DNA of 22,091 nucleotides, from the IMG/VR virus record IMGVR_UViG_3300044641_005933, positions 1-22,091 of that record; one strand, given 5' to 3'. Origin of the DNA: a virus. Below, in pieces: positions 3,114 through 14,298 of this stretch (the first letter of the stretch is position 1; each line of letters opens with the position of its first letter). Both the position numbers and the translations under genes were made by a program. The notes beneath the pieces were generated by a model. That model ran no database searches. It worked only from the letters and a program-made list of their open reading frames with translations, and was not told the DNA's origin.

Positions 3114-3830
3114 TTACCATTTTCTGCCTCGTTTCCAGTTCTCCCCCGGGGCCTCCTTACTCCGACAAGTCTCACCTAAAGAATTAACCCACCAATACCC
3201 TCTTTCTGGGATTGGTTTCTCAACCGGCCACTTTCTCCCAGGCCTCCAATCCAACCCCGGACTTTCCAGGCTTCGCGTAGTTCTCCCGGATTCGTGGACC
3301 CACCACGGGTACTCAGAAACCGTGAAAAGCCTACCAAAACAAAATCCTTCAGGTACATTAGATCCTTTGGGAAGAAGCTTCTCTGAAGCTCCGTTATTAA
3401 CCCAAAAGGAACCTAGATGCTTTTCTCTATTCGCTTGTTTAGCTTCTTCAGTGTGCGAAACACCGTAACGGTGATGATCTGGGCCAATGCCGCAATAATT
3501 CTTTCCGGTACGAGATTCTTTCCTTCTTTTTAAAGTTTCCTCGGAAAATTTGTGCCCGGTTAAGTTGGGCGGAAGAACTGCATTCGGATTAAGATTATAA
3601 CATTGCTCTTTGCCGAACCACTGGTCCAGTAAAGCTTGTTCTAGTACAGGCTGGTCCCAGTTATCTTCATATACTTCCCAAATAAATGCTTCTGGGTTCT
3701 TTCTTAGCGCTCTCTGAAAGGGATAAGGATCATTAGATCCTAAATGAGCAGCCTGTCTTTTCTCAAAGTTAATTGAACTCCCAATGTAAAATTTCCCATT
3801 AAGAGTATTTGTGGCGATGTAAGTGAACAT
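3114..3830 (-). CDS. GIY-YIG homing endonuclease (Seg-like)
   Basis: A 238-residue protein. The N-terminal GIY-YIG domain is clear: FTYIATNTLNGKFYIGSS (residues 2-19), with the second motif as FYIG, then conserved Arg25 and a Glu in the LEQALLDQWFG helix. Next comes a NUMOD3-like DNA-binding segment (FSEETLKRRKESRTGK). The C-terminus has two 27-residue repeats (about 175-201 and 212-238) of the form WWV..G.T.RS.E.PG..W..GRKW. Such proteins cut intron-less or intron-minus alleles and spread by gene conversion. The start at 3830 (MFTYI) is chosen because the family begins there; the longer frame to 3893 overlaps the terminator region. It sits directly after the DUF932-type gene and is AT-richer than that gene. 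Confidence 0.9.
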   Translation of the reverse strand: MFTYIATNTLNGKFYIGSSINFEKRQAAHLGSNDPYPFQRALRKNPEAFIWEVYEDNWDQPVLEQALLDQWFGKEQCYNLNPNAVLPPNLTGHKFSEETLKRRKESRTGKNYCGIGPDHHRYGVSHTEEAKQANREKHLGSFWVNNGASEKLLPKGSNVPEGFCFGRLFTVSEYPWWVHESGRTTRSLESPGLDWRPGRKWPVEKPIPERGYWWVNSLGETCRSKEAPGENWKRGRKW

Positions 3831-3910
3831 AGTCTTTTGGCGAAGTTTGGGAGGATGGGAACTCCGCCAAGAGAAAACCACCCAACCCAACAACCTTTAC
3901 CCCCATACAC

Positions 3911-8971: not shown

Positions 8972-9469
8972 TCACAGAGTGAAACCTTGCTGCACTACCT
9001 TAACTGGGTAGCCTTCCCGGAGGTTACGCATACGGGTCGCCATACCCTTGCGCCACGAGGGATTTTGGTTGCTTCGACTCGCATTGCGCTCGTCCAGCAG
9101 CTGAGGGTCAGCTTCCAGGAAGTAGGTGGTTACATCCGGGCAGCCCCCGTAGAAAAAGTCGAAGAATTTGCTGTTGGAGAAGCGTTCGCCCTCCCAATAG
9201 AACTCCCAGTCATCGTAGGCAGGATCGGCATTCTTCGCATCGAGCCACTCGCGGTACTTGGGACCACAAGATTTTGCGGTGCGGTCGGTTCCGCTAAAGA
9301 CGGCATCATCGTAGATGCCCGCAACGAAGACCTTTTCCTCTGGGTATTCTGTGTAGACCACCAACCCTTCTTTCTTCACGGTGCCTGTGTCCTTGAGGTT
9401 GGAGATGAAAGCACGCATGATGGTGCTTTTGCCAGATGCGGGCTCGCCGCAGAGACCAACGATTTTCAT
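8972..9469 (-). CDS. P-loop NTPase / nucleoside-kinase-like protein
   Basis: A 165-residue protein with a Walker A motif GEPASGKST at residues 8-16. It then reads GIYDDAVFSGTDR (about 51-63), a feature of a small phage ATP-binding family, and ends with RNASRSNQNPSWRKGMATR, a basic lid-like segment. The fold looks like a small nucleotide or sugar kinase. The substrate is not visible; its place downstream of the hypermodification block and next to a HAD protein makes a role in nucleotide modification possible. ATG 9469 overlaps the stop of the HAD gene (ATGA). Confidence 0.68.
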   Translation of the reverse strand: MKIVGLCGEPASGKSTIMRAFISNLKDTGTVKKEGLVVYTEYPEEKVFVAGIYDDAVFSGTDRTAKSCGPKYREWLDAKNADPAYDDWEFYWEGERFSNSKFFDFFYGGCPDVTTYFLEADPQLLDERNASRSNQNPSWRKGMATRMRNLREGYPVKVVQQGFTL

Positions 9470-9858
9470 TTGCGCGTAATATTATGAACGAGGTGAACTA
9501 CCTTAACCTCCGGAACTAGAGCCTCGATAATTTCCTTTTGCCTTTCGTCATCCTCAAAGAATTTCTCGATGCGGTGAGTCTTTAGGAGTTCCCGTAGAGT
9601 TAGGGCCTTGTGGTACCCTGAAATTTCTCGAGTCTTAAGGTGCTCGGGCACCTGGCTGAAGTAAATTTGGTTGTGAATACCGAACTTCTCACACCAGGCG
9701 ACCGTCTTATCTCGTTCTTCAAAAGAACGCCCCGTAATTATAATGTCGTTGGGCCCGGGGAAGACCCCAGGGGAGTCTTTGCCGTAATAAATTACGCCGT
9801 CGAAGTCAAAACAATTTACTGGTTCCACGTTAAAAGCCCATAAAGGAATGTAGGACAT
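9466..9858 (-). CDS. HAD-superfamily phosphatase-like protein
   Basis: A 130-residue protein. Motif I is FDFDGVI (17-23; D18 nucleophile and D20), motif II is ITGRS (41-45), Lys84 is a candidate motif III, and EDDERQ (102-107) is motif IV. All four HAD signatures are present in a compact protein without a cap domain, like T4 PNK 3'-phosphatase or small phage phosphatases. Substrate unknown. It starts by TAATG overlap with the homing endonuclease stop and overlaps the P-loop gene. Tight coupling to a P-loop kinase suggests a kinase-phosphatase pair. Confidence 0.75.
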   Translation of the reverse strand: MSYIPLWAFNVEPVNCFDFDGVIYYGKDSPGVFPGPNDIIITGRSFEERDKTVAWCEKFGIHNQIYFSQVPEHLKTREISGYHKALTLRELLKTHRIEKFFEDDERQKEIIEALVPEVKVVHLVHNITRK

Positions 9859-10397
9859 TACTGTTCTTTTCTTAGATTTTTGACGAAAGTTTCCCTTCCT
9901 CTTGCCAATGCGTCAAGCCGAGCTTGACGTTCTTCTGGGGTCTCATTTTGGACCCTTCTTTGGGCCGCTTCAGATTGTTTTCTACGAGTCTCCTCAGAGT
10001 GGTGAACTTCATAAGGTCCATGTTCCTCTAAATAGCGTAAACGAGCTTCCCTCATTTTTCGCTTAGACTCTTCACTCCTCTTCTTACCTTTATTCTTTTC
10101 TGTAAGAAGCTTCTGCCTCTCTCGTCTCCTTTGAGTCTCTTCTTCAGAAAGTTTCTTTTTGCGACCTTTATTAACTTTACTACTATGTTCCGCAGCTTTC
10201 TCAAGAACTTTCTGTTTGAGGCCGTCAGGGAGCAAAGGCCATGCCTCATGGCGAAAATCAAACCGGGGACCTTCATTGTAAAGAAAGTCCCAGGCGTGAT
10301 GCAAAGCATGGCTGTACGGGTCTAGCTCCTCTAAATTGGAGGGGTCATTCGACCCTCCCCTGCTCTTAGGTTGCTTATGATGCCGGTGTCTTTTCAT
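9858..10397 (-). CDS. HNH homing endonuclease with NUMOD3-like repeats
   Basis: A 179-residue very basic protein. The N-terminus is an HNH motif of the phage type: RHHKQPKSRGGSNDPSNLEE followed by LDPYSHALHHAW (about residues 4-36). It is followed by several NUMOD3-like helices (GRKKKLSEEETQRRRERQ, NKGKKRSEESKRKMREAR, HSEETRRKQSEAAQRR). These bind DNA in free-standing homing endonucleases. The start codon lies inside the last codons of the inositol phosphate synthase gene (23-base overlap in another frame). It likely inserted at that boundary and is transcribed with the operon. Confidence 0.82.
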   Translation of the reverse strand: MKRHRHHKQPKSRGGSNDPSNLEELDPYSHALHHAWDFLYNEGPRFDFRHEAWPLLPDGLKQKVLEKAAEHSSKVNKGRKKKLSEEETQRRRERQKLLTEKNKGKKRSEESKRKMREARLRYLEEHGPYEVHHSEETRRKQSEAAQRRVQNETPEERQARLDALARGRETFVKNLRKEQ

Positions 10398-11523
10398 TAA
10401 GGTAAGTGTTACGAACCGTCATCCCCGCGATATCCCTTACAGCAAACGCTTCGCATTCTGCCTGAGCTACGGCAAAGGGAAGTTGCTCCGGGGGCGTTTT
10501 CTGAGTGAACGCACTGGGGCCCCGAAGAGACCCAATAACTCCCTCTTCCTTAGCAACTTTTAGATACCTGATGGCATCGATTACAACCCCAGAAGAATTT
10601 TCAGAATCGCAGACTTTCAGCTTACAGTCAAGCTCCACAGGTGCTCCCCCGAAAGACTCCAGCTCAAGCCGGAAGTAAGCCACCTTGTGGTCTTTCAGGT
10701 AGGGGATCCAAGTGCTGGGGCCTGCGTAGAGGGACTCATCCTCGATTTCAATGCCCCGCAGCTCATTTTGAGCACGAATCACGTTTTCTTTCGAGATTTT
10801 CTTTGAGGCCAACCGGTCTTGATTGGACATTACTAGAAAGTCGGAATTTCCTCCTACATTGACTTGTTGGTGGAATTTCACGACGCAACCACGGCTAAAG
10901 GCTAATTCTTGAAGCATTTGGCTAACAATGGAAGCACCCAAAGCCGATTTCATGTCGTCACCGCAAATAGGCAGGCCAGCGTCAATAAACTTCTTCTCCC
11001 ACACAGGATCAGAAGCAATAAACACTGGAATACAATTCATAAAAGCTACGCCAGCTTTCAAGCAGCACTCTGCATAATACTCGGTGGCAATCTGGCTACC
11101 AACCGGGCAATAGTTAATCAGGATATCGGCTTTTGTTTCTCGAAGAACTTCGGCCACATCGACTGGATCTTCGTTGGAGAGCCTAAAGCCATATTTTTCC
11201 GGGGCTTCCAGCATATGTTGGCTGACTCCGTCGAACACCGGAGGCATCTGAACGATAGGGCCTGCTGGCACATCCGGGCAAAAAACACGGGCGCAGTTGG
11301 GGGCGGCAAAGATTGCTTCGCCCAACGGACGCCCAACTTTACGGCGATCAACGTCGAAAGCAGCAACAAACTCGATGTCGGCGGGATGGTAACCGCCGAT
11401 GCGAGCAAACATCACACCAGGAATATTATCCTCATAATGATCCTTATAGAATTGCACACCCTGGTAAAGGGCGGACAGGCAGTTGCCGACACCAGCAACG
11501 GCAACGCGAATCTTTTTAGACAT
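10375..11523 (-). CDS. ino1: Inositol-3-phosphate synthase (MIPS)
   Basis: A 382-residue protein of the short bacterial/archaeal MIPS class. It converts D-glucose 6-phosphate to 1D-myo-inositol 3-phosphate using NAD as a bound cofactor. Evidence: Rossmann GVGNCLS (11-17), GDDMKSALGASI (188-199, K192), NVGGNSDF (222-229), KDHK (277-280) and DSENSSGVVIDAIR (306-319), all in family order with the expected spacing. Length and ends look intact. Such a gene is unusual in a phage. Because it lies next to a TET/JBP-type dioxygenase and a DNA-transferase-like gene, I infer that it feeds DNA modification, although use in host metabolism or membrane lipids is also possible. Promoter 11588-11615 is embedded in the preceding gene's end. 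Confidence 0.95.
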   Translation of the reverse strand: MSKKIRVAVAGVGNCLSALYQGVQFYKDHYEDNIPGVMFARIGGYHPADIEFVAAFDVDRRKVGRPLGEAIFAAPNCARVFCPDVPAGPIVQMPPVFDGVSQHMLEAPEKYGFRLSNEDPVDVAEVLRETKADILINYCPVGSQIATEYYAECCLKAGVAFMNCIPVFIASDPVWEKKFIDAGLPICGDDMKSALGASIVSQMLQELAFSRGCVVKFHQQVNVGGNSDFLVMSNQDRLASKKISKENVIRAQNELRGIEIEDESLYAGPSTWIPYLKDHKVAYFRLELESFGGAPVELDCKLKVCDSENSSGVVIDAIRYLKVAKEEGVIGSLRGPSAFTQKTPPEQLPFAVAQAECEAFAVRDIAGMTVRNTYLNEKTPAS

Positions 11524-11587
11524 TGGGCCTCAGTATGTCAGTTTAGTGAAAACGGTCGTTGATTGAGGGTCGTAGGACCGTACAACT

Positions 11588-11615
11588 ATTATAGTATCGG
11601 GGCTGCCAGTGTAAA
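11588..11615 (-). promoter_or_regulatory. Sigma-70-type promoter of the inositol phosphate synthase operon
   Basis: Minus strand: -35 TTTACA (11615-11610), 16-base spacer, perfect -10 TATAAT (11593-11588). The TAA stop codon of the transferase-like gene (11591-11589) lies inside this -10. The leader is about 60 bases. Confidence 0.8.
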
Positions 11616-12785
11616 GTCAGCCGTATACTTCAGCTCGGGAACCGACAAGTTATCATGTTGCCAAAACTCACCAAGCAACCCCTCGTTCGGGTCTAGCCCT
11701 AAAACAGAATGAACATCTGGCATGTCATTAAAGCAGTCATCCATGTTAATCATCATCCCGGTTCGACCAAAGATCGCATTGTGCCACGGTACAATCTGCT
11801 TCCCTTGCGTTTTGCCAGGCAGTGACCGAGCTGCTTCGCGATATTTCGACCAGTCGATTTCGGGCCAATTTTTAGCGTAGTACAGGTACCACTGAGCGTG
11901 ATCACCCGACGAATGCCCCGCATACTCTTTCGAGGCTTTTTCGTTAAATAACCGTTTATACATACACCAAATCGTTTCACACCGGAAACTATCGACCTTC
12001 TTGCCCAGGTAAGTTTGACCTTGCTCACAGTAGTCGTGCACAGTACTTTGAAACCACTCGATGTCCTTCGTGGTGGGTTTGTACTCCCCGTACTTACCAA
12101 CCATCTTTCCAGGAACATTTTCCAGGGCGCAGAGACCGTTCCAGATTGACTGCATTGAGCTATCGTTATGAGGGCCGTAACCATCCAGAATCGGAGTTCC
12201 CAAGTCAATCGGCAAATCGGCCAAGTCGTGCAAAGCTTGCATCGCCAACCATGAGGTCATTCTGCCATACTTGTAAAGTTTGGCGATTTCATTGAACAAC
12301 GCGTAAAAGTTCTCTTTCTGAGTGTCAAATACGATGATACTATTTATTTTCTCAGTCAGAGTACCATTACCGATCCATTCCTTTACTGATTGGCATTGTT
12401 TCACGAAGTGACCTTTATTATACCGGGCATCTGATCCGTAAGTTGTTCGACGCCAGTTGTCAGTGTGCCAAGTTTCGATATCTGAGATTGAAGTGCTATG
12501 GATGTAGGGGAATGTCTCAGTGTATGCCCAACTTTGGCATGTGCGGTACGTCATTCCAAAGACCATCGCAAACCACAACCGTTGCTCGAGATCATAATCA
12601 CGGCACACAGTTCGCATCCAGTACCTCTGATCAAGGTCTTCATGGGTGACCCTCCAAGCGAAATACCGGAGAAACAGTTCTTTCCTGTTCTCCGGCAACC
12701 GGTAATCTTTCTCAGAGGGATTGTTCTCGTACGCTCTCAGTTTTACCTCAGCGTAGGCCGGGACATGAGTAGAAAAACGAGCCAT
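11589..12785 (-). CDS. Putative amino acid:DNA transferase (aGPT-Pplase/ADDT-like)
   Basis: A 398-residue protein that I place, with moderate confidence, near the helical alpha-glutamyl/putrescinyl-thymine pyrophosphorylase (aGPT-Pplase / amino acid:DNA transferase) group that replaces the activated 5-hydroxymethyl of 5hmU in phage DNA. Supporting stretches: LFLRYFAWRVTHEDLDQRYW (about 37-56), RLWFAMVFGMTYRTCQSW (about 69-86), and YGRMTSWLAMQALHDLADLP (173-192) followed by an aspartate-rich loop (DGYGPHNDSS) and WNGLCALEN. These fit the YG-R-SAF type core of the group as I remember it. The neighbours (TET/JBP upstream, inositol phosphate synthase downstream) support a DNA-base role. Promoter/operator at 12788-12837. 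No terminator separates it from the next gene. Confidence 0.55.
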   Translation of the reverse strand: MARFSTHVPAYAEVKLRAYENNPSEKDYRLPENRKELFLRYFAWRVTHEDLDQRYWMRTVCRDYDLEQRLWFAMVFGMTYRTCQSWAYTETFPYIHSTSISDIETWHTDNWRRTTYGSDARYNKGHFVKQCQSVKEWIGNGTLTEKINSIIVFDTQKENFYALFNEIAKLYKYGRMTSWLAMQALHDLADLPIDLGTPILDGYGPHNDSSMQSIWNGLCALENVPGKMVGKYGEYKPTTKDIEWFQSTVHDYCEQGQTYLGKKVDSFRCETIWCMYKRLFNEKASKEYAGHSSGDHAQWYLYYAKNWPEIDWSKYREAARSLPGKTQGKQIVPWHNAIFGRTGMMINMDDCFNDMPDVHSVLGLDPNEGLLGEFWQHDNLSVPELKYTADFTLAAPIL

Positions 12786-12787
12786 GC

Positions 12788-12816
12788 TATATTAGCCAGT
12801 AACACAAGCTAATATA
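12788..12816. promoter_or_regulatory. Operator-like inverted repeat before the transferase-like gene
   Basis: TATATTAGC (12788-12796) and GCTAATATA (12808-12816) form a perfect 9-bp dyad around an 11-base spacer. It starts 3 bases upstream of the ATG and overlaps the -10 region, so a repressor or an mRNA hairpin could control expression. Confidence 0.6.
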
Positions 12817-12837
12817 ACATTGGCTTTCAGATGTAAG
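12809..12837 (-). promoter_or_regulatory. Candidate promoter for the transferase-like gene
   Basis: Minus strand: -35 CTTACA (12837-12832), 17-base spacer, -10 TATTAG (12814-12809); TATATT (12816-12811) is an alternative -10 at 15 bases. It overlaps the 9-bp dyad. Confidence 0.5.
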
Positions 12838-12849
12838 GAGTTTCCTTCT

Positions 12850-12878
12850 AAAACTTGCCGAGAATGCTTCGCATTCTC
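12850..12878 (-). terminator. Probable terminator after the TET/JBP-type gene
   Basis: Perfect 8-bp stem GAGAATGC-GAA-GCATTCTC (12878-12860), followed six bases later by TTTT (12853-12850). It is about 10 bases past the stop codon at 12889. Confidence 0.6.
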
Positions 12879-12888
12879 TCCTCGGACG

Positions 12889-14298
12889 TTAGCTTTTAGC
12901 CAGATGAGGTTGCCTCACCATTAATTCGGCTTCGTCAGGTTTGCCCGCAATATTCGTGTTAGAACATTTCGTGTAGTCAAAGTCACCTTCGGCAGCTCTC
13001 GTCGCCTTGTAATCTTCCCACAACTGAGAACCCCACATCCCCGGGGCGCTGCCATTCCATTTTGCTTCACCGGTGCCTAATTCCGGATGGTTCTCTGCAA
13101 GAAACTCCATAAACTCTCGACGGCATGTTTCGCATTCCAGCGGATCCAGCGTCAGCACAGCATCTTTACTGTAGAAAACAAAAGTGATCGACTCAGCGTC
13201 AGCCGAGGCGTTTCGCATTTCGGTAATCGAGTGCTCGACCTCGTTGTTATCCCCAATAAATAAGTCACCGTGACGCATGTTAAAAGCGAGACGGAGGGGA
13301 TGCATCACGAACTCAAACCCATCAAACTTTCCGTTATCGAGTGCAGAAAGCACCGCCATTCCTTTGTCAGAGTTAGCACCGTCCACATGACGGGCAACTT
13401 GAAAGTTGTAGTTGATGGTGAAGCTGGTAAATACTGTGCCAAACAAGTTGTACCGCTCGTCAGCAACTTGACTAAAACGTTCATTTAGCAGTTCCCACCG
13501 GTCCGGCATATGCTGCTTGAGCAATTCGTTAACCTCGTTGAACACTTTCTTCTGCTCTTGAAACTCCTCCCATTTCGCCAATGTGGGCGCCGTCAACCTG
13601 CCGAACGGGGTACGTCCTGACCGAGTGATTGTGCCAAACACAGCGGAGTACGCTTTGTTTCCGCGCGGGTTTCCGGTAACATAGCGCTTCTTAGCCGCTT
13701 TCGCCGCAGCCACCTTGTCTTCCGACTTATCCCACACCGTCCGCAACCAACACTCAAACCATGCCAGTTTGGCTGCATTTCTCTTGTCTGTCGCCTCCTT
13801 CCTCTGCTTCGGGGGCGTCGCTTTCTTGCGAACAATCGCATCCCAACGTTCCACTTCGTTCAGATCCACCAGGCCATCGGCCTCGGCTTTTCCTACGAAA
13901 TAAGTGGTTACAGTCGGAGTGTCATCCGCAGTCAGCTCAAGAGCCTCTTCCAGCGTAATCTCCTTTTTGGTGGCAACACTAAAGAACGCTTTCTGGCCCT
14001 CGGTCACCCTGATTTCCACGTTTGTCCTCAACTCTTTACCTGCGGCCGACCCTCGTTGGTCACTCAGGAGGGATCGACTCGCCCATTTCCAGTACCTGTA
14101 ATCATCGGAATCTGGCGTCAGAGAAGCAAGGGACTTGATGGCACCTTTGCGAAACACTACCGCAAGGGAACCATCTGGCAAATAAACGTCGCAATCTTCG
14201 TCAATCACCTCATCATAGTCTTTCTTTGCGGGAAACTTCCCATGGTTGGCTTTATCACCAAAACCATAAAGTTCTTTCAGATGAATTTTTCGTACCAT
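12889..14298 (-). CDS. TET/JBP-type 2-oxoglutarate/Fe(II) dioxygenase
   Basis: A 469-residue protein. The C-terminal catalytic double-stranded beta-helix is clear: TVFTSFTINYNFQVARHVDG (288-307) carries the H304-x-D306 iron ligands, then FDGFEFVMHPLRLAFNMRHG with GDLFIGD and the distal His356 in EVEHSI. The end, ENHPELGTGEAKWNGSAPGM followed by WGSQLWEDYK, is the tail typical of phage members. These enzymes oxidise the methyl of thymine or 5-methylcytosine in DNA. The Arg that usually contacts 2-oxoglutarate just before the last core strand is replaced in SITFVFY (370-376), though Arg362 is nearby. The N-terminal 1-200 region is not assigned. Its promoter overlaps the stop codon of the preceding gene. 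Confidence 0.85.
   Translation of the reverse strand: MVRKIHLKELYGFGDKANHGKFPAKKDYDEVIDEDCDVYLPDGSLAVVFRKGAIKSLASLTPDSDDYRYWKWASRSLLSDQRGSAAGKELRTNVEIRVTEGQKAFFSVATKKEITLEEALELTADDTPTVTTYFVGKAEADGLVDLNEVERWDAIVRKKATPPKQRKEATDKRNAAKLAWFECWLRTVWDKSEDKVAAAKAAKKRYVTGNPRGNKAYSAVFGTITRSGRTPFGRLTAPTLAKWEEFQEQKKVFNEVNELLKQHMPDRWELLNERFSQVADERYNLFGTVFTSFTINYNFQVARHVDGANSDKGMAVLSALDNGKFDGFEFVMHPLRLAFNMRHGDLFIGDNNEVEHSITEMRNASADAESITFVFYSKDAVLTLDPLECETCRREFMEFLAENHPELGTGEAKWNGSAPGMWGSQLWEDYKATRAAEGDFDYTKCSNTNIAGKPDEAELMVRQPHLAKS

Follow-up and report, generated by a model that had tools for sequence, protein, structure and literature searches.

A phage operon for DNA hypermodification that may make inositol-substituted thymine

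The stretch analysed here (the window) covers positions 1 to 22,091 of IMG/VR virus record IMGVR_UViG_3300044641_005933, 22,091 nucleotides in all. Its minus strand carries a five-gene operon in which genes for a TET/JBP oxygenase (TET), an ADDT-family transferase (ADDT) and an inositol-3-phosphate synthase (MIPS) are followed by those for a small HAD phosphatase (HAD) and a P-loop kinase. This is very probably a DNA-hypermodification operon, and with it the phage probably hypermodifies its own DNA, making inositol-substituted thymine. The locus contains the following features.

12889-14298, minus strand: TET/JBP 2-oxoglutarate/Fe(II) oxygenase, 469 amino acids, PF12851
11589-12785, minus strand: ADDT-family base-alkyl transferase, 398 amino acids, PF18724, fold match to PUGT
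11588-11615, minus strand: sigma-70-like promoter match TTTACA-16-TATAAT, 11/12, by consensus scan only
10375-11523, minus strand: inositol-3-phosphate synthase (MIPS/Ino1), 382 amino acids, PF01658, match to 1gr0
9858-10397, minus strand: HNH/NUMOD3 homing-type endonuclease (NUMOD3 5.4e-5, HNH 3.4e-3)
9466-9858, minus strand: small HAD phosphatase, 130 residues, HAD motifs and model fold
8972-9469, minus strand: P-loop kinase, PF18751 (Ploopntkinase3)

A preliminary description had listed the first three genes as consecutive on the minus strand, and all three open reading frames were confirmed at their coordinates; the operon reaches beyond that description, down to position 8972. TET and ADDT are separated by 103 bp and ADDT and MIPS by 65 bp, and the HAD and kinase genes overlap by 4 bp. 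The HNH gene, which lies between MIPS and HAD, where relatives such as L006, L007, L016 and L017 have none, is an insertion outside the pathway; the window also carries a GIY-YIG endonuclease gene at 3114-3893. The promoters said to be embedded in the gene ends were weakly borne out: the 11/12 match is upstream of MIPS and overlaps the 3' end of ADDT, and a second one (9/12, by consensus scan) lies upstream of TET, but the total of 7 matches did not exceed the chance level of 4.8 ± 2.0 in shuffled sequence. Catalytic residues were kept in all five families, and the ratio of nonsynonymous to synonymous substitution rates (dN/dS) was 0.05-0.11 where measurable, indicating purifying selection.

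The family signals, previously described as clear to moderate, held up, with TET, ADDT and MIPS all exceeding the curated cut-offs. TET matched Tet_JBP PF12851 at 6.5e-18 (64.9 bits, cut-off 34.9). Its HxD...H metal ligands H304, D306 and H356 were conserved in 55 of 55 homologues, and R342, a candidate basic residue for binding 2-oxoglutarate, was arginine in 42 of the 55 and is not invariant. Its dN/dS was 0.09 against the closely related locus L007, and a profile search of solved structures gave weak matches only, the best to TET2 at 0.015.

ADDT matched PF18724 at 4.8e-25 (89.1 bits, cut-off 26.2). Since single-sequence and profile searches of solved structures found no relative, a fold comparison was needed, for which an AlphaFold2 model with a mean pLDDT of 89 was built from a 29-sequence alignment. 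The sole credible matches in the PDB, which took the top three places (probability 0.98-1.00), were entries 8z2m and 8z2n of the 5-phosphomethyl-2'-deoxyuridine glycinyltransferase PUGT. The nearest solved fold of the modelled ADDT is thus that of an enzyme which, according to the entry title, moves a small metabolite onto 5-phosphomethyl-2'-deoxyuridine (5-phosphomethyl-dU). The transferase assignment, the weakest link of the preliminary description, proved sound, and both Pfam and fold place the 398-residue protein inside a DNA-modifying family.

MIPS matched Mycobacterium tuberculosis inositol-3-phosphate synthase Ino1 (1gr0) over its full length at 1.4e-101 (344 bits) and Inos-1-P_synth PF01658 at 9.8e-22 (77.6 bits, cut-off 27). 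Residues K245, D278, K280, D306 and K342, which we take to be the catalytic lysines and aspartates of Ino1 enzymes, were invariant in 97 of 97 phage homologues. HAD was found at 69 of the 72 MIPS loci having enough downstream sequence; its motif residues D18, D20, K84, D103 and D104 were present in 80 of 80 homologues and T42 in 78 of 80 (T/S). A profile search of the PDB with HAD gave chance matches only, and its model (pLDDT 94) came nearest to the T4 Pnkp 3'-phosphatase and the Nir2 C-terminal domain. The kinase matched PF18751 at 8.4e-8 (32.4 bits, cut-off 27), kept Walker A residues G8, G13 and K14 together with E93 in 64 of 64 homologues, and occupied the same slot across class I clusters (defined below). 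Related P-loop kinases of phrog_800, such as Cr30 gp114, are annotated as 'terminase small subunit', an annotation that their operon context suggests is wrong.

To follow MIPS without selecting for modification genes, viral contigs were scanned with a MIPS alignment, and the best 80 of 194 confirmed relatives were kept, so that the sample covers the closer phage MIPS genes. Together with loci found earlier this gave 90 MIPS loci, representing 61 distinct genes at 95% identity. DNA-modification genes lay within 10 kb of MIPS for 60 of the 61 distinct phage genes and HAD accompanied 54; the remaining gene, on a truncated contig, has the kinase and HAD. The loci fell into three classes. Class I (31) has TET and/or ADDT, with the kinase. 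Class II (about 20) has a thymidylate synthase (TS)-like protein resembling dCMP (deoxycytidine monophosphate) hydroxymethylase, an SGNH-like protein (motif reading only) and an HMUDK_hel PF18723 protein. Class III (about 9) has queC, queE, folE and TGT and includes the Menderavirus Moby, whose MIPS is shared by other Menderavirus isolates. Genes for FkbM methyltransferases, found in 14 of 61 clusters, turn up repeatedly in class I and class II.

Among loci of at least 9 kb, a strict modification marker was found at 66 of 68 MIPS loci versus 10 of 34 control loci without MIPS that had been located through the clamp-loader gene gp44 (p=2e-13, a certainty that is overstated, as in all p-values here, because related contigs are counted as independent). 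Because a class I phage supplied the gp44 probe, this control is conservative. The MIPS tree shows at least 17 interchanges among the three classes, and the inositol pair has thus been repeatedly recruited by different DNA-modification pathways. A reverse probe of 84,980 bacterial and archaeal genomes with the HAD alignment yielded five loci, all adjoining MIPS and four with class II genes; these probably are phage contigs in environmental bins.

These linkages bear on whether MIPS and HAD might instead work in the metabolism of the host (osmolyte, phospholipid or phosphate salvage), standing beside modification genes by chance or through shared expression timing. We regard this as highly improbable. 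It is in keeping with the Stenotrophomonas phage Ps15 paper, where MIPS, by its number (ORF137) inside the queuosine cluster, is described only as a 'bacteria-like' protein (PMC9025141). Against it stand the 60/61 linkage over three unrelated modification chemistries, the class switches, the absence of MIPS together with the ADDT clade described below, and the finding of HAD only beside MIPS, except at locus L103. A housekeeping role for MIPS was rejected on its linkage to modification genes, and the unrelated contexts in which MIPS homologues might have been found did not appear among the 61 distinct phage genes.

Some arrangements within the other classes are recorded here. At the class III locus L041 (10001-12328) MIPS, HAD and QueC are contiguous, and at L077 (11688-12893) QueC is fused to a HAD-like domain (LNS2 1.3e-4, below cut-off), hinting that in this class QueC homologues cooperate with the inositol module. 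A C5-cytosine-methyltransferase-like gene is present in about 10 class II clusters (L035, L040, L058, L068 and others), often beside the dCMP-hydroxymethylase-type gene; the representative at L068 13796-14989 matched PF00145 at 7e-19.

The base oxidised by TET was assessed from the same loci. A C5-cytosine methyltransferase over cut-off was found in 0 of 25 class I records, of which that of the cultured Caulobacter phage Cr30 is complete and most others are fragments; TET therefore probably acts on thymine. At the class I loci that have ADDT and MIPS without TET (L080, L098 and L099), the TS-like protein carries Asn at the equivalent of Escherichia coli ThyA residue 177 (dUMP, deoxyuridine monophosphate, type), whereas all class II TS-like proteins carry Asp there (dCMP-hydroxymethylase type); an E. 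coli ThyA sequence served as the numbering reference, and the anchor motifs (RSxD, active Cys, Gly) align. Asn versus Asp at this position separates dUMP-type TS from the T4-type dCMP hydroxymethylase. From this pattern and the lack of C5-cytosine methyltransferase in class I, we read class I as thymine/5-hydroxymethyluracil (5hmU) and class II as cytosine/5-hydroxymethylcytosine (5hmC).

It is very unlikely that TET acts instead on 5-methylcytosine, leading to inositol-modified 5hmC. Class II loci do use a dCMP-type hydroxymethylase, and characterised phage TETs reportedly (Burke et al., 2021) oxidise 5-methylcytosine made by a phage methyltransferase, but the 0/25 count includes the complete Cr30 record, and at class I loci without TET the TS-like enzyme is of the dUMP type. 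The 5-methylcytosine route was rejected on the lack of a methyltransferase over cut-off in class I records. Thus, from the earlier proposal of thymine or 5-methylcytosine as target, the oxidised pyrimidine was supported, with thymine likelier, and the second option lost ground.

The group that ADDT transfers was approached through its tree. The window ADDT falls in a clade of 40, with MIPS in 39, while in the sister clade, which includes the Salmonella SW16-7 protein and the ADDTs of gp44-control phages, MIPS or HAD accompanied 0 of 9 (Fisher 5e-9; two label changes on the tree). The control phages have related TET and kinase genes, the other ADDT clade and neither MIPS nor HAD, and the genomic context points to inositol instead of an amino acid as ADDT donor. 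The control loci, having ADDT without MIPS, were considered as exceptions to the rule and dismissed as such, since their ADDTs form a separate clade, also without HAD. Between their TET and ADDT genes, two of these phages (L164 3900-7111 and L175 1984-6070) have a class II glutamine amidotransferase (in L164, GATase_6 1.4e-9) along with unassigned proteins, which probably form a different donor cassette.

These results suggest the following pathway, in which we infer every reaction, the TET substrate, the sequence in which kinase and HAD act and the inositol-DNA bond from a strong gene association. TET would oxidise thymine in DNA to 5hmU, the hydroxymethyl group of which the P-loop kinase would phosphorylate to give 5-phosphomethyl-dU; this kinase may work like 5-HMUDK, although it is not filed as one. 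MIPS is predicted to turn glucose 6-phosphate into inositol 3-phosphate. HAD, the proposed inositol-phosphate phosphatase, would free myo-inositol from it or strip the phosphate after transfer; its modelled fold is as close to that of T4 polynucleotide 3'-phosphatase as to that of a small-molecule phosphatase, so its substrate could be an inositol phosphate that DNA already carries. Via ADDT, an inositol hydroxyl would then displace the phosphate of 5-phosphomethyl-dU, yielding 5-(inosityloxymethyl)-dU. This is chemically reasonable because a serine hydroxyl is the nucleophile in the ViI pathway. An FkbM-type methyltransferase may O-methylate the product in about a quarter of relatives, and the product would shield the phage genome from host nucleases.

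We consider it likely that inositol or a close derivative is the group that ends up on the DNA, and reasonably likely that ADDT is the enzyme attaching it to 5-phosphomethyl-dU. MIPS and HAD appear to be a portable inositol module, also plugged into the 5hmC-type and 7-deazaguanine pathways of related phages. The original idea, in which a pyrimidine is first oxidised and then decorated, the likely substituent being an inositol compound, gained support from the Pfam and fold assignment of ADDT and from the 60/61 MIPS linkage; inositol phosphate, the donor or substituent first suggested, is matched in likelihood by free inositol. Gene families, catalytic residues, synteny and co-inheritance were shown, as was the predicted fold of ADDT.

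Several points weigh against this pathway. The Foldseek match of ADDT to PUGT had an E-value of 0.04-0.16 and a TM-score of 0.4-0.6 (up to 0.61 on the target); with E=0.04 at best, such TM-scores and no solved relative by profile, both its donor and its acceptor are putative. For HAD, the closest folds belong to a nucleic-acid 3'-phosphatase and a lipid-binding domain and not to an inositol monophosphatase. Known kinases of 5hmU in DNA carry HMUDK_hel PF18723, which the operon kinase does not have and which was found in none of the window proteins scanned, Cr30 or the other TET-bearing class I records searched. Contig L103, in the MIPS-linked ADDT clade, has HAD and lacks MIPS in 88.9 kb. A literature search for Cr30 DNA modification found no chemical data. 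Finally, gene clustering by itself is compatible both with inositol as the substituent and with inositol as a precursor of it, and the name of PF18724, amino acid:DNA transferase, points to an amino acid.

The last point leads to an amino-acid-type thymine hypermodification, as in phages ViI and M6, in which ADDT would use an amino acid and inositol would be added later to it or to a further group. Details of the amino-acid transferases of that pathway are reportedly given by Lee et al. (2018/2022). Besides the family name, the nearest solved fold is a glycinyltransferase, and distant relatives of ADDT occur in Ackermannviridae, the 5-NeOmdU family. Class I loci yielded no recurring amino-acid tailoring gene, though, with the PLP (pyridoxal phosphate) decarboxylase PF00282 in 0 of 9 class I records, and MIPS and HAD are absent together with the MIPS-linked ADDT clade, pointing to the ADDT substrate itself; we judge this alternative unlikely.

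It is rather improbable that the final group is different, inositol being converted into another cyclitol, an amino-cyclitol or a uronate before attachment, or the MIPS homologue making a five-membered cyclitol phosphate. The homologue does match the five-membered-cyclitol-phosphate synthase 6k96 at 194.6 bits, Cr30 has an extra gene resembling TET-associated glycosyltransferases, and FkbM methyltransferases occur in the clusters counted above. Yet the Ino1 match is far better, and no obvious recurrent inositol dehydrogenase or aminotransferase was found among cluster neighbours.

All five genes of the proposed inositol operon occur in the same order in Cr30 (P-loop gene, HAD, MIPS, ADDT, TET), and IMG/VR relatives keep TET-ADDT-MIPS-HAD-kinase even at ~25% ADDT identity. 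Comparison of window 8972-14298 with L007 2189-10936 showed flanking genes mostly 94-98% identical, with ADDT at 24% and MIPS at 82%, from which we conclude that the ADDT-MIPS segment changed hands among phages that are otherwise nearly identical. Both have HNH sequences, separating MIPS from HAD in the window and TET from ADDT in L007, which suggests homing-associated exchange of the segment. The Cr30 gene between MIPS and ADDT (gp122, L001 11519-12445) is glycosyltransferase-like (PF20691, TET-associated glycosyltransferase, 8.5e-4, below cut-off; phrog_842 4.7e-8) and may glycosylate the modified base. A relative of the Cr30 kinase occurs in Melnitz phages as well (Methylophilales phage Melnitz-2, L093 4010-8090), where it lies next to a C5-cytosine methyltransferase and proteins of unknown function; this MIPS-free locus is one more candidate cluster for DNA modification.

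Among known systems, ViI and M6 (5-NeOmdU, 5-NedU) resemble the operon in using a 5-hydroxymethyl-dU handle, a kinase step and then a transferase, and 5-phosphomethyl-dU is made by a kinase in M6, ViI and phi W-14 (PMC6449724). They differ in that a TS-like enzyme produces 5-hydroxymethyl-dU at the nucleotide level and the attached group is an amino acid, whereas here TET would make 5hmU in DNA and MIPS and HAD replace the amino-acid tailoring enzymes. PUGT, gp46 of Pseudomonas phage PaMx, shares the modelled ADDT fold and, by its entry title, acts on 5-phosphomethyl-dU, the proposed ADDT substrate; it uses glycine, and a relationship in sequence is not detectable. Phage TET/5-methylcytosine hypermodification and base J synthesis (JBP) also start with a 2-oxoglutarate/Fe oxygenase that makes a hydroxymethyl handle in DNA. 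There decoration proceeds by glycosyl transfer, unlike in the class I operons, where no C5-cytosine methyltransferase over cut-off was found (0/25) and a cyclitol synthase is the donor module.

The thymidine hypermodification cluster of Rhodococcus phage Tonitrus, with a predicted TET-like protein, aGPT-Pplase2 and a 5hmU kinase (PMC11955845), is like the operon in these three components; MIPS or HAD is not reported there. The Menderavirus 7-deazaguanine cluster contains the same MIPS and HAD pair inside folE-queC-TGT-queE, with another base handle and without ADDT or TET. A passage of PMC11550810 cites algal CMD1 as making 5-glyceryl-methylcytosine. This enzyme too is a TET homologue that links a polyol to pyrimidine C5. 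It adds a glyceryl group derived from vitamin C to 5-methylcytosine in a single step, whereas the operon has one enzyme each as oxygenase, kinase and transferase. The literature found held neither an inositol-linked DNA base nor a phage MIPS tied to DNA modification, although key papers lay outside the search and a prior prediction elsewhere is possible.

Phage DNA decorations known so far are sugars, amino acids, amines and a few others, and a cyclitol, if true, would be a new chemical class. The chances are about even that inositol is a general phage DNA-base substituent, one MIPS and HAD module feeding at least three handles and giving a class of cyclitol-modified DNAs; equally balanced is the assignment of these handles as 5hmU (through TET, kinase and ADDT), 5hmC (through the dCMP-hydroxymethylase-type enzyme and the HMUDK_hel and SGNH-like proteins) and 7-deazaguanine (through queC, queE and TGT). 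An inosityl ether could have passed for glycosylation because it is isobaric with hexose, and hexose is not the only possible reading of a +162 Da shift on phage nucleosides. The cultured Caulobacter Cr30 and Stenotrophomonas Menderavirus isolates make the proposal directly testable. It offers a role for the 'inositol phosphate synthase' of phages, which annotators have left as a curiosity, and if one inositol module has indeed been combined repeatedly with three base handles, handles and substituents would be cassettes that evolve separately.

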